A stretch of DNA of 64,000 bases from Myxococcales bacterium SG8_38 (lineage in GTDB: Bacteria; Myxococcota_A; Polyangia; Polyangiales; Houyiibacteriaceae): NCBI GenBank assembly GCA_001303415.1, contig LJTN01000013.1:1-64000 (forward strand). The letters are read 5' to 3'. This document shows positions 9,678 to 54,740 of the stretch, piece after piece. The number at the start of each line of letters is the position of its first letter. Within the stretch, counting starts at the first letter, position 1. The notes under the pieces are model-generated. The model saw only the letters and a program-made list of their open reading frames with translations. It was not told where the DNA came from and searched no databases. Position numbers and translations under genes: made by a program.

Positions 9678-12523
9678 TCAGAACGGCGTTCCGAAGCTGA
9701 CGTAGAACGTGGCCCCGCCACCCTCGTCGAATCCGTATGCGAAGCCCAGTCGCAACGATAGGGGCTCCGAGTAGCCGACGGTGAAGTTCATCAAGAGCTC
9801 CAGACCAGCACCTTTGCGAAAGCTGCTGAAATCGAGCGGGCCGAAATACGCATTTCCATAATCGAAAAAAACGAGCCCATACATCCGATCGAAGAATAGA
9901 GGCACGGTGCCCGGGCCGCGAAGCACCCGAGTCAACGGGAACCTGTATTCGGTCTGAAGGAGCTGAAAGCGGTCGCCGAATATCGAGAATGCCGGGTAGC
10001 CGCGCAGGGCCACGCCGCCCTGTTCCTCGAAGTTGACTAGCTGATCGAGAAACGACGTGTCCGGAAAGCCCCCCAGCGAGAATATTCCGCGCTCGCCGCG
10101 GCTGTCTTCGCCGGCCCCGCCGCCGTATCGAAACGCGAGAACATGATGCTGCGCCCAAGGCATTTCGATGAAGCGCCTGATGAACCACGATGCGCTGATA
10201 CTTTCAAATTGGCTGCCTACCCCGGGATGCGCGAAGAAGATGGAAGCTCCCAGGGTTCGTCCTTCAGATGGCGTGTAGTCGTAGAGATGCTGCCGAACGT
10301 CGCTGTATGACCAGGAAAGACCGATGTCCGCGTTGAGGCCGGTGGCGGGCACGATGGGAGGCGCAAAGTTGGGATCGAGCGTGCCATCGAACGTCGACAA
10401 GGAGCGCGTCCACGTCAGCCCATAGCTGGCGCTGATTCGATTCGCGTGAAAAGAGCGCGGGATGAGGTAACCCACCGCGAACCGGCCTCCGTACGCGTCT
10501 TCTACGTAAGGTTGCCTCTGCCCATTGACGACGAAGCCACCCCGTGGGGTGACCCGACGGAAGAACGAGAGCGAAAGGTCCGGCGGCAGGCGCCGAAGCG
10601 TGTAGCGAAGGTCTGCGTTGACATAACCTTCGGTGAGGCTGATTCCGAGCCGGGCGAAGAAGTTGTGGAGCTGCGCCGCATCTTCGCCTCGCGTGAAGAT
10701 TCCAAGCTGACGCCCGAAGGCGTCTTCCTCCAGGTCCAGACCCCAGAATCGCGGATAGAGCGTTCGCGCTGCAGCATAGCGATCCGACGCGTCCGCGAGC
10801 AGCGTATCGGCATCGCTTGGCGGCGGGCGATCGTCGGCGTAAGGCGCCGCTGGTCCGCCCTGCTCGGATTCGAGCTCGAGCAGATAGACGTCGTAGCCTC
10901 GGCTGGTGTAGCCGATGTAGGCGAGCCGTCTCCCATCGGGTGATGGCGCAGGGGTATACGCACCCGAAACCACGTTGGTGATCTGCGTGATCTCGCCGGA
11001 GCCAGGTTCCCATGCATAGATGTTCGCAATGCCGGTACGGTCGCTCGAAAAGTAGAGGCGGCTTCCATCGGGAGACCACGCGGGACCGGTGTCGAGGGCG
11101 CGGTCATGGGTGACCTTCACGATTTCTCTGGATGCGAGATCGATCACGTGGATGTCGCGGTACCCTCCTTTGCGCCAAGCGCTGTATGCCAGTTTGGTGC
11201 CGTCGGGGGAGAATCGCGGCGTATACACCTGTTCGAATCGGTCGCTCGGAACGAGCAACTCCTGGGTGCCTTCGATGTCGTCTAGGCTCGCAATCCACAG
11301 GCTTTGGGTGCTGGAATCGTTGCGAACGTACGCGATGCGGCGCCCATCGGGAGAGATATCGGGGTAACGCGCCCGGAGGCCCCGAGTGATCCGTTCACGC
11401 TTCCACACACCTCGCGGATCGAAGCGGAACAGGTCGTAGAACGTATAGATGTTGGTTCTATACGCATCGAGGGATTCGAAATAGAGCTCCCCGTCTGGGT
11501 CGACGACCGGGTAGCTCTCGCCGGAGCTCCGCACGATCCGCTCCAGTTCGTTGCCATCGCCGAGGTCGAGCGCTCGAATCTGCGGATCGCTTCGACCGTC
11601 GCTCACGTAGTAGATGAGCCTTTGGTCATCCGTGAACCGCAGTCCGCGCACCGTCTCACCATGGAACGTCAGCCGGCGCCCCGCAGTGATTCCTCGCGCA
11701 CGGACACTCGCTTGCACCGCTTCGTAGTGTCTGTGCATGTCCTCGATCCAGAGATCGTAGAGCTCGGCAAACGTCTTTCCGGTCAGCCGCTTTCCCATCC
11801 GATTGACGCTGAACGGAATTGCACGGCGCCCGTACCACTCGGTGATGTCCGTGATGATCTCCTCACCGTAGCGGTCTACCAGCCACTGTACGAAGCGTGA
11901 GCCGTAGAGGTACCAGATGTCTCCGTGAGGCCAGTAGTCGGTTCGGTTGTTTAGCGTATCGAAGTGCAAAATGTTGTTTTCCAGGAAGGCCATCCGCATG
12001 TACATCTCGAACTGCGTCGAGCGCATGCGGCCTCCGGCCGTTTCACGCGACTCCAGATACGTCGCGATGCCTTCGACGATCCATCGCGGCTGGAGAGCAT
12101 TCGGCGCCCAGATCCTACCGAAGATGTGATTGATGATCCGGGGTAGGCCCCCGATGTTGTCGAGATGAAGGACGTGAGCGTGCTCGTGGGTGACCAGGAT
12201 GGTTAGCCAATCATCGAAGTCGCTGAGCACCGACAGGTCGCTCGGTGCACCGACGAAGAGTCGGATCACGTTGTAGGGAAGGACCGAGGCATTGCCGTTC
12301 GCCGTGTCGACCTCGTCGACGAGGACGATTTGGACTCGTTTCTTCGGCCGGTGTCCGAGGATCGGCGCGAGCCGCTCAGGGCCAGGGGCTCCGGATAGCT
12401 GACCTCGAAGTGCTCGCTGCGGACGGTACGCCAACGCCTGCCGAGGTCCTTGGTCTGAGCCGCCGCTGGAATCGCCCCCAAAAGCGCCAGCAAGCAAGCC
12501 ATCGCAGCCGCTGCGCGGGCCAT
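9678..12523 (-). CDS. Secreted peptidase-MA/TolB-propeller/outer-membrane barrel protein, interrupted by a frameshift
   Basis: The body (9678 to about 12385) encodes a gluzincin-type domain (VTHEHAHVLHLD, with a downstream WIVEGIATYLES carrying the third ligand), then WD40-like PD40 repeats (SPDGRRIAYV, FSPDGTKLAYS, WSPDGSRLYFSSDR, PSPDGRRLAYIGY), then a roughly 350-residue BamA/surface-antigen-like barrel ending in F. The signal peptide (MARAAAAMACLLALLGAIPAAAQ, ATG at 12523) and the first mature residues WRTVRSEHFEVSYPEPLA lie in a different frame. That frame runs out of similarity at about 12380, where the body frame resumes with ERLAPILGH. The two frames differ by 2 mod 3, and about 13 residues of the expected helix seem missing. 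Either a disabling deletion or a sequence error. The barrel domain suggests outer-membrane anchoring. Confidence 0.8.
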
Positions 12524-12569
12524 CCCCGCCCTTCTAGCACGGGCCCCGAGGGCGCCCATAACAGTCCAC

Positions 12570-40041: not shown

Positions 40042-41441
40042 TCCGCGCGCTCACTGATCGCATCGCGATAGGTCCGCTCGTAGAGACGAATCGTACGCTC
40101 CCAGGAGTGGTCGATTCGCATCACACGGCTCTGCAGCTCTCGAAACGCCTTGGCATTGGCAAACGCGGCCGCGGCCCGTTGGAGAGCCGAAAGCAAAGAC
40201 CTTTCCGTGGGGGTGTCGTAGAGGAACCCGGAACCCGTCTTCAACGACGCCTCGCAATCCACCACGTCGTCAGCCAGACCGCCTTCCCGATGAACAATCG
40301 GCAATGCGCCGTAGCGCTGCGCCCGCATCTGGATGTTGTCCGTCGGAGCTTCGCGGCCCGGAACCACGACGAAATCGCTGGCCGCGATGAGCGTGTGCCT
40401 GAACGCCTCGTCGTTGCCAGTCCTGATCTGAATGCGATCGGGCCATTGGTCCCAGAGCTCCTCGTAGATCGCGACCAGCTCTCCGCCGCCTTCCAGCTGA
40501 ACGACCAATTGCACGTCGTTCCGCAGGAAGTCGGACCCGACCTTGGCCAAGAGGTCCATTCCGTCACCTTCGACCCGCCCGAGCGCGGCAAACAAGGGCA
40601 CGTCACTGCGGACCGGGAGCATCACGTCACGCTGAAGGGCCGCCTTGCACTCCCCTTTTCCCTCCATGTCGAACGGATCGAAGCGGGACGACAGATGACC
40701 GTCCGTCGCGGGGTTCCAGCGAGCAGGGTCTATTCCGTGCCTCACACCGATGAGGCGAGGGCCGACCTCTCGAAACACGGGGGCCAAGGGGTTGCTGCTC
40801 TCGGGGCGCTGAAGACGGTGCGCATAGTTGGGCGACAAGGTCGTGACTCGATCCGCGCTCAGCAAGCCCGCCCTCAGCACGTTGATACGCTCACCTTCGC
40901 GGGCTTCCTCGCCCAGGCCCAACCATTCCGCGTCCCGTTCGTCGAACCTTCCTTGATGCTCGGCATCGTACACGGTGAGAACGGCAGGCAGCTCGGGGAC
41001 CACGGACCGTAAGCGCGCCACCGCGGCGGCGCCAGCCCAGCCATGCGCATGAACGACGTCGTGGCCTTTGGCGTTCTGCCGGACATGCTCGGCCGCGGCC
41101 GCGGCGAACACACCGACACGCGTCGCGTCGAGCTGCTCACCTTCGCCGGTGAGCGACCCCGCAGACAAGAGTACCTCCTCGTTTCCGATGAAGGTGAGGT
41201 CGACGCCATCTGGATTGCGTCCCGTATAGAGCTCGCAGGACCATGTCCTGCCACCGAGCTCGACCTCGAGCTTGGTGAGCCGCCGCGCCAGCGCGAGCTT
41301 CGTCACGTTGATGTGACCGTAGAGTGGAGAGACGAGCTCGACGCTGTGATCAGCGCGGCGCAAGACCTTGGCCAAGGTCAGCACGTCGCGCGCCTCCTGG
41401 CTCGAGGTGAATGCTTGAGGGGCGATGAACAGGACTCGCAA
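40038..41441 (-). CDS. Divergent GT5 (glycogen synthase-like) glycosyltransferase
   Basis: 467 residues, two Rossmann-like domains. GT5 features: HDVVHAHGWAGAAAVARL, the VRHGIDPARWNPATDGHLSSRFDPFDMEGKGECKAALQ block, and AALGRVEGDGMDLLAKV. Two nucleotide-sugar motifs of true glycogen synthases are absent: the N-terminal KxGGL is FTSSQEARDVL, and the C-terminal EPCGLTQ region reads REAPTDNIQMRAQRYG. So it is GT5-like but probably has altered donor specificity or no activity. A role in storage or surface glycan is possible; neighbours give no help. Confidence 0.75.
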   Translation of the reverse strand: MRVLFIAPQAFTSSQEARDVLTLAKVLRRADHSVELVSPLYGHINVTKLALARRLTKLEVELGGRTWSCELYTGRNPDGVDLTFIGNEEVLLSAGSLTGEGEQLDATRVGVFAAAAAEHVRQNAKGHDVVHAHGWAGAAAVARLRSVVPELPAVLTVYDAEHQGRFDERDAEWLGLGEEAREGERINVLRAGLLSADRVTTLSPNYAHRLQRPESSNPLAPVFREVGPRLIGVRHGIDPARWNPATDGHLSSRFDPFDMEGKGECKAALQRDVMLPVRSDVPLFAALGRVEGDGMDLLAKVGSDFLRNDVQLVVQLEGGGELVAIYEELWDQWPDRIQIRTGNDEAFRHTLIAASDFVVVPGREAPTDNIQMRAQRYGALPIVHREGGLADDVVDCEASLKTGSGFLYDTPTERSLLSALQRAAAAFANAKAFRELQSRVMRIDHSWERTIRLYERTYRDAISERAD

Positions 41442-41530
41442 GGTGCTGGACCATAGCGATTGTTCGTGGCGCCGGCCACGTGGAAAAAACCTGGTTGCGC
41501 CCGACGCCTACTGCGCCAGGATGGGTGTGG

Positions 41531-42436
41531 ATGACTGTACGCGGGAAAATCGCCGTGACCGGGGCTTCCGGGCTCGTCGGTGAAGCTCTGGTGCCCGCGC
41601 TTCAGGCCCATGGCTTCGAGGTTCTGCGCCTAGTGCGGCGCGTGGCCTCGGCGGACGACGAGGTACGGTGGGATCCGAGCGCCGGCACGATCGACTCGGA
41701 AGCGCTTCGGGGCGTGATGGGGGCGGTCCATCTTGCGGGCGAGAACATCGGGTCCGGACGCTGGACCGAGAGCAAGAAGAAGAAAATTCGCGACAGCCGA
41801 GTCCAGGGCACACAGCTGCTTGCGGGCGCTCTCGCAAGGCTTTCGCCGAGGCCGAATGTGCTGGTCTCCGCTTCCGGAGTCAACTACTACGGGACGCGCG
41901 GCTCCGAGACGCTGGATGAGCGCAGCGCCTCGGGGAGCGGCTTTCTCGCCTCCGTGTGCCGCGAATGGGAGGCTGCGACGTCTCCGGCTAGTGAAGCTGG
42001 GATTCGGGTAGTGCTCGCGCGCTTCGGCATGGTGCTTTCCTCCGAAGGGGGCGCGCTCGAGAAGATGAAGATGCCATTCGTCTTGGGAGTTGGCGGTCGC
42101 ATCGGAGATGGGACCCAATACATGAGCTGGATCGCCTTGGAGGATCTGATCTCAGCCATCATCTTCGCGCTCGATCGCGACGACCTGCGAGGACCCGCGA
42201 ATTTCGTCTCGCCTACGCCTGTGACCAACGCGGATTTCACGTCCACCCTGGGTCGCGTTCTCAAGCGTCCCACGGTGCTGCCTGTACCCGAGTTTGCTTT
42301 GCGGCTGGCACTCGGTTCGGAGATGGCAAACGAGCTGCTGATCGGTGGTGTCCGCGTGATCCCGGCCGAGCTTCACGCTCACGGGTTCGAGTGGCAATAC
42401 CCCACGCTCGAGCCCGCGCTCCGTTCGATCCTCTGA
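41531..42436 (+). CDS. TIGR01777-family NAD-dependent epimerase/dehydratase (YfcH-like)
   Basis: 301 residues from ATG 41531 (an in-frame ATG at 41480 adds a poorly conserved stretch). GKIAVTGASGLVGEALVPALQAHG is the Rossmann glycine motif. VHLAGENIGSGRWTESKKKKIRDSRVQGT is the family hallmark. SGVNYYGTRGSETLDE contains the active-site YG region of this SDR subfamily, and the C-terminus holds the DUF1731 domain (VPEFALRLALGSEMANELLIGGVRVIPAEL). The substrate is unknown. Confidence 0.88.
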   Translation: MTVRGKIAVTGASGLVGEALVPALQAHGFEVLRLVRRVASADDEVRWDPSAGTIDSEALRGVMGAVHLAGENIGSGRWTESKKKKIRDSRVQGTQLLAGALARLSPRPNVLVSASGVNYYGTRGSETLDERSASGSGFLASVCREWEAATSPASEAGIRVVLARFGMVLSSEGGALEKMKMPFVLGVGGRIGDGTQYMSWIALEDLISAIIFALDRDDLRGPANFVSPTPVTNADFTSTLGRVLKRPTVLPVPEFALRLALGSEMANELLIGGVRVIPAELHAHGFEWQYPTLEPALRSIL

Positions 42437-53730: not shown

Positions 53731-54233
53731 AGCGTCGTCTCCAAGACTTTCGCCGTCTGTGCGGATCGGTATGCATGGAGCCGACGGCGTAGCTCTACGT
53801 CGTGTCTAGCCAGGATGGCGGCGGCCAGCAGCGCCGCGTTCGCGGCACCTGAATCTCCAATCGCCAACGTGCCTACCGGGATCCCCTTGGGCATCTGCAC
53901 GATGGACAAGAGCGAATCCATCCCGCTGAGAGCGCTGGTGCGGACGGGTACGCCGAGGACGGGAAGCAAGGTCTTGGCGGCCGCCATGCCGGGTAGGTGG
54001 GCCGCGCCGCCGGCACCCGCGATGATCACCTCGATGCCCCGGGCCTCTGCCTGCTCACAAAAGCTGAAGAGCAGGTCGGGCGTTCGATGGGCGGAGACGA
54101 CCCTCGCCTCGTACGGAATCTCGAGCTCGCTCAACACCCGGGCGGCGTGCTCCATCGTGGACCAATCGCTTTGGCTGCCCATGATGAGCGCGACGCGGGG
54201 CGGGTGGGGGTCAGGGCTTGGTGGGGATCCCAT
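53727..54233 (-). CDS. purE: N5-carboxyaminoimidazole ribonucleotide mutase
   Basis: 168 residues from ATG 54233, the best start because upstream residues are not PurE-like. [45 protein letters not shown] is the typical N-terminus, with GSxSD and the AHRTP catalytic loop. [26 protein letters not shown] and [19 protein letters not shown] follow. It makes 4-carboxy-AIR from N5-CAIR supplied by PurK. The 180 nt upstream are AT-rich and contain a palindrome and promoter-like boxes. Confidence 0.95.
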
Positions 54234-54249
54234 GCGACAATATACTCGC

Positions 54250-54261
54250 GAAATTAATTTC
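54250..54261. promoter_or_regulatory. 12-bp palindrome, candidate operator upstream of purE
   Basis: GAAATTAATTTC is a perfect palindrome 17 nt before the purE start. It is set in an AT-rich stretch with flanking CG/CG pairs and nearby ATATAC/GTATAT half-sites. A TACAAT sequence on the minus strand could be a -10 whose start site would fall in the palindrome. It does not resemble the known PurR box. Confidence 0.35.
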
Positions 54262-54339
54262 ACGTATTGTATATCGCCAGAACTCATCGGGCGCAAGCGG
54301 TTCCGCCCAAAAAACTCCCAATTGCCCATAGTTAGCGAT

Positions 54340-54369
54340 TTGACTCATGAAATCTCCGTCATGTAATGT
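54340..54369 (+). promoter_or_regulatory. Sigma70-like promoter of winged-helix regulator copy 2
   Basis: TTGACT (54340-54345) and TAATGT (54364-54369) are 18 nt apart on the plus strand and lie 45-75 nt before the regulator ATG. The spacer includes TCATGAAATCTCCGTCATG with two CATG centres, like ATCATG elements upstream of copy 1, which suggests related operators. Confidence 0.4.
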
Positions 54370-54413
54370 CGGGTCGCGTCGGATGTGGCTCGCGAGCGAG
54401 GGGATGACGAACG

Positions 54414-54740
54414 ATGGCAAAGGCAAGCGGGAAGGCTGCGGAACAGGATACCTCGTGGACTTTCCTCACCAATCATTCTCACGTGCTCTTGTGCCTGGCG
54501 CAGGACCCCGAAGCGCGAATGCGTGATGTCGCCGAGCGGGTGGGGATTACCGAGCGCGCGGTTCAGCGCATCGTGTCCGAGCTCGAGGCCGCAGGCTATC
54601 TCGTACGGAGCAGGGAAGGGCGGCGAAATCGATACGAGGTCAAGGGGGATCTGCCATTGAGGCACCCCGTGGAGGGTCACCGCAACCTCGATGCCCTCAT
54701 CAAGCTCATACTGGGCTCGAAGGCCAAGCCGTCACACTGA
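54414..54740 (+). CDS. Winged helix-turn-helix regulator, copy 2
   Basis: 108 residues. TSWTFLTNHSHVLLCLAQDPEARMRDVAERVGITERAVQRIVSELEAAGYLVRSREGRRNRYEVKGDLPLRHPVEGHRNLDALIKLI is collinear with copy 1 (47679-48005), sharing GITERAVQRI and PLRHPxE. They are clear paralogues. It diverges from purE-purK, so it may control those genes or itself; this is not shown by the sequence. Transcription would read towards the convergent MscS gene. Confidence 0.85.
   Translation: MAKASGKAAEQDTSWTFLTNHSHVLLCLAQDPEARMRDVAERVGITERAVQRIVSELEAAGYLVRSREGRRNRYEVKGDLPLRHPVEGHRNLDALIKLILGSKAKPSH

Follow-up and report, generated by a model that had tools for sequence, protein, structure and literature searches.

The DNA analysed here (the window, a 64,000-nucleotide stretch from Myxococcales bacterium SG8_38) contains a gene which is divided between two reading frames, raising the question of whether the gene has been disabled or whether the division is a fault of the assembly. 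This was the choice left by the original prediction, and it is supported by the 40-nt gap, the single gene copy, and the unsplit relatives described below. Six-frame reading of the stretch indicated that two minus-strand frames at window positions 9678 to 12559 hold one gene, the parts of which are as follows:

12376 to 12559, minus strand: N-terminal fragment in its own frame from the ATG at 12559, comprising the signal peptide and the first mature residues, to SYPEPLAL
12375 to 12377, minus strand: junction of the 40-nt deletion, as judged against all readable relatives
12266 to 12375, minus strand: out-of-register tail of the N-terminal frame from the six-frame reading, with its stop codon at 12266
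9678 to 12383, minus strand: body, in the other frame, comprising a zincin-like domain with HEHAH, a TolB-like PD40 propeller, and a C-terminal strand-rich (Omp85-type barrel-like) domain

The N-terminal frame, which harbors another in-frame ATG at 12523, ceases to show homology at approximately position 12377, close to the end near 12380 that had been predicted for the signal peptide and early mature part. The body, which had been expected to resume with ERLAPILGH in a frame offset by 2, was found to start with GPERLAPILGH in a frame (codon at 12383) that is +2/-1 relative to the N-terminal frame; it spans 901 codons (12383 to 9681), is stop-free inside, and terminates at the stop codon at 9678. 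The junction was placed at approximately 12377 to 12375, its exact base being ambiguous because the adjacent codons are variable.

A search over 37 genomes returned matches in all 37, with a stop-free main match in each. The genus comprises 19 genomes including that of the window, and among the 18 others, 17 were readable at the site, of which 12 carry the full gene, 4 carry a gene ended later by the contig end, and 1 (G002) carries a remnant; G010, in which the C-terminal part alone is present, was left out of the site count. The signal peptide and body form a single frame in all 17 readable same-genus genomes, thus providing the contiguous frame that the alignment with close relatives suggested by the original prediction was meant to reveal. 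A single continuous frame is also present in 16 of the 18 genomes outside the genus, the remaining two being G033, which was not extracted, and G032, which yielded a weak propeller match only. Relative to same-genus relatives (10 aligned, 17 segments compared), the window is short by exactly 40 nt, in agreement with the predicted loss of about 13 residues (about 40 nt), and these missing nucleotides account for the frame change between the N-terminal part and the body. The lost residues, which had been assigned to a helix, were located, in the structure predicted for an intact relative, to helix 48-69, which follows the second strand; this region is of moderate confidence, and the model as a whole is weak (mean pLDDT 54.5, pTM 0.41). 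Contig breaks within this gene were observed in 5 of the 18 same-genus relatives (G007, G010, G011, G012, and G017), and the two pieces of the gene in G007 and G017 overlap by approximately 35 to 45 residues; such breaks possibly represent strain variation or ordinary fragmentation.

With regard to the encoded product, PD40 propeller repeats were detected in the body (PF07676, E value of 8.6e-28), and the family profile matches TolB structures across positions 401 to 581 (1.1e-37). Assignment as a TolB equivalog was rejected, since the match of the window protein to TIGR02800 (E value of 2e-39) scored 135.7 bits, far under the cut-off of 343.15. The Peptidase MA superfamily comprises zincins, which bear an HExxH motif and a downstream Glu; both are present in the window protein, and H126, E127, H130, and the downstream E164 are invariant in all 14 aligned sequences. 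The Peptidase MA family was matched weakly (PF13485 in L043, 16.5 bits against a cut-off of 32.4), reaching an E value of 0.01 or lower in 5 of 14 members (best, 0.0011), while Pfam Omp85 reached this level in 3 of 14 (best, 1.5e-5). The C terminus is predicted, in a low-confidence model, to consist of strands from approximately residue 606. The earlier label of a peptidase/propeller/barrel protein is a fair one, and the gene product is predicted to be exported and anchored in the outer membrane. No paper was found which describes any two of the PD40, Omp85, and peptidase MA domains together, although this says little.

The gene is single-copy in its own assembly (G000), in which a DNA search returned one match and a protein search returned, as the sole other match, a propeller at 24% identity; no intact second copy was thus found in this assembly, which is 92% complete. 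Against 12 full-length same-genus relatives, the body exhibits a dN/dS of approximately 0.08 to 0.13, at dS values near saturation (1.4 to 1.9), resembling that of the intact relatives among themselves and indicating the same purifying selection. The window sequence carries 10 private changes at columns which are invariant in the other 12, the range for the others being 1 to 21. Relaxed selection on the remaining gene is expected of an old pseudogene and not of a young one, and no relaxation was seen on the body in either dN/dS or private changes relative to the 12 relatives. The body is therefore constrained, without long neutral decay, and the lesion is either young or absent from the cells.

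We propose that a recent 40-nt deletion has probably inactivated this gene, which is present in one copy and encodes an exported outer-membrane protein. The 40 nt would have been lost just behind the signal peptide, with a shift of the frame and the removal of approximately 13 residues from the mature protein's first helix. Initiation at the normal start would then yield a short secreted stub ending at 12266, whereas any product re-initiated in the body frame would have no signal peptide and could not reach the outer membrane. Most likely, then, the sequenced population has no active copy of this gene and makes no functional protein from it, and the deletion is probably present in the cells rather than in the assembly alone. 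It is considered young because the 901-codon body harbors no other lesion.

Relevant in this context is G002 (95% complete), another species of the genus, in which the gene has been lost. Here, a 162-aa remnant (L031:5278-5766, contig 75) sits between frames corresponding to the flanking genes of the window. The remnant is heavily decayed, being truncated at its end and missing a large internal portion: the 40 nt are retained along with the rest of the N-terminal part, after which the sequence leaps from approximately residue 93 to approximately residue 741 of L043 and then ends. An ancestral lesion common to the window and G002 was thus rejected, as the 40 nt are kept in G002 and a different part is gone. 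The presence of the remnant at the same place indicates that the gene is dispensable, or at least losable, in the genus by different lesions.

The principal competing explanation, which we regard as less likely, is a fault of assembly or consensus: the gene would be intact in the cells, and a GC-rich, hairpin-prone stretch would have lost 40 nt during amplification, assembly, or strain merging. An open body under normal constraint is what would be expected of an intact gene, and the genome is represented by a 105-contig assembly of incomplete content. According to one study of bacterial assemblies, many "pseudogenes" in bacteria are artefacts of assembly, and these spurious cases are frequent where coverage is low (PMC11017572). 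The site is, furthermore, hairpin-prone in many relatives: the equivalent 40-nt stretch, taken with 10 nt on either side, often forms strong DNA folds, falling in the lowest 6% of the gene's 60-nt windows in 10 of 17 relatives and at the 18th percentile or above in 4 of 17, a property which is at most a hint at the origin of a deletion or of a sequencing dropout. An 8-nt inverted repeat surrounds the segment missing from the window at L043:3955-4003, and hairpin potential was observed at the equivalent segment in several other relatives. The same GC-rich, hairpin-prone character might speculatively have caused a genuine deletion, possibly by slippage. A genuine deletion is favored over an assembly fault because the junction lacks repeats through which 40 nt could be skipped in assembly (neither the 131-nt L043 stretch nor the 101-nt window stretch contains direct repeats of at least 8 nt), because the other window genes with homologues read through without clear splits, and because the gene has been clearly and independently lost in G002. 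Across the window, the frames of relatives were compared with 56 homologous intervals that do not overlap one another, a number that includes antisense shadows; three were flagged as split, among which only the peptidase gene is an unambiguous case of a split coding gene. Poor sequence quality throughout the window was not supported by this comparison. The other two, at 40056-41874 and 53920-54713, show apparent splits relative to G002 frames and are, partly by judgement, probably shadow frames, as the genes they overlap match better on the opposite strand.

Readings in which the divided gene still functions appear far less plausible. Programmed frameshifting, or phase variation through gain or loss of the 40 nt, would generate an altered or switchable protein and would agree with a long open body that was constrained until recently, yet we consider it very unlikely: such a split is absent from every readable relative, a conserved helix would be incomplete in the product, visual inspection of the overlap codons revealed no slippery heptamer, and no tandem-repeat array was found at the site. 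The original prediction would have yielded to relatives with the same split and evidence of programmed frameshifting, neither of which was encountered. It is more improbable still that the gene is intact and uses a downstream start, its protein working inside the cell without a signal peptide; TTG 12497 or an internal ATG could open the body frame, but the body and signal peptide are joined in one frame in every readable relative, and similarity to envelope proteins (TolB and Omp85) is seen in the propeller and in the strand-rich C-terminal part. Equally remote is a DNA-level switch of peptidase export, in which some of the cells would lack the hairpin-prone 40-nt segment, or the segment would be deleted and later restored. 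A plasmid search with the 5′ region returned no match, and an upstream promoter scan, which was uninformative, returned nothing.

Recent inactivation by deletion therefore remains the preferred explanation, and the event has the look of a commonplace, recent loss of a gene, or else of an error in assembly, rather than of a new mechanism. Its value lies mainly in annotation, in that the genome can be annotated as probably not producing this protein. Taken together, the window lesion and the G002 remnant also show that an envelope protein which is widely conserved in the order can be lost.

The closest known counterparts of the window gene are its orthologues within the genus and order (e.g., that of CP070713.1, designated L043), which encode the same domains; those of the genus share 73 to 80% protein identity with it over the full body, and in G013 the flanking genes also match. 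These orthologues form one continuous frame, whereas the window gene lacks 40 nt. PD40 propeller repeats are common to the window protein and TolB, the propeller protein of the Tol-Pal system, from which the former differs in possessing additional peptidase and C-terminal domains. Finally, like recent bacterial pseudogenes that arose by small frameshifting deletions, the window gene shows one young deletion that breaks a frame which is otherwise open and constrained, a deletion observed here at the level of the assembly.
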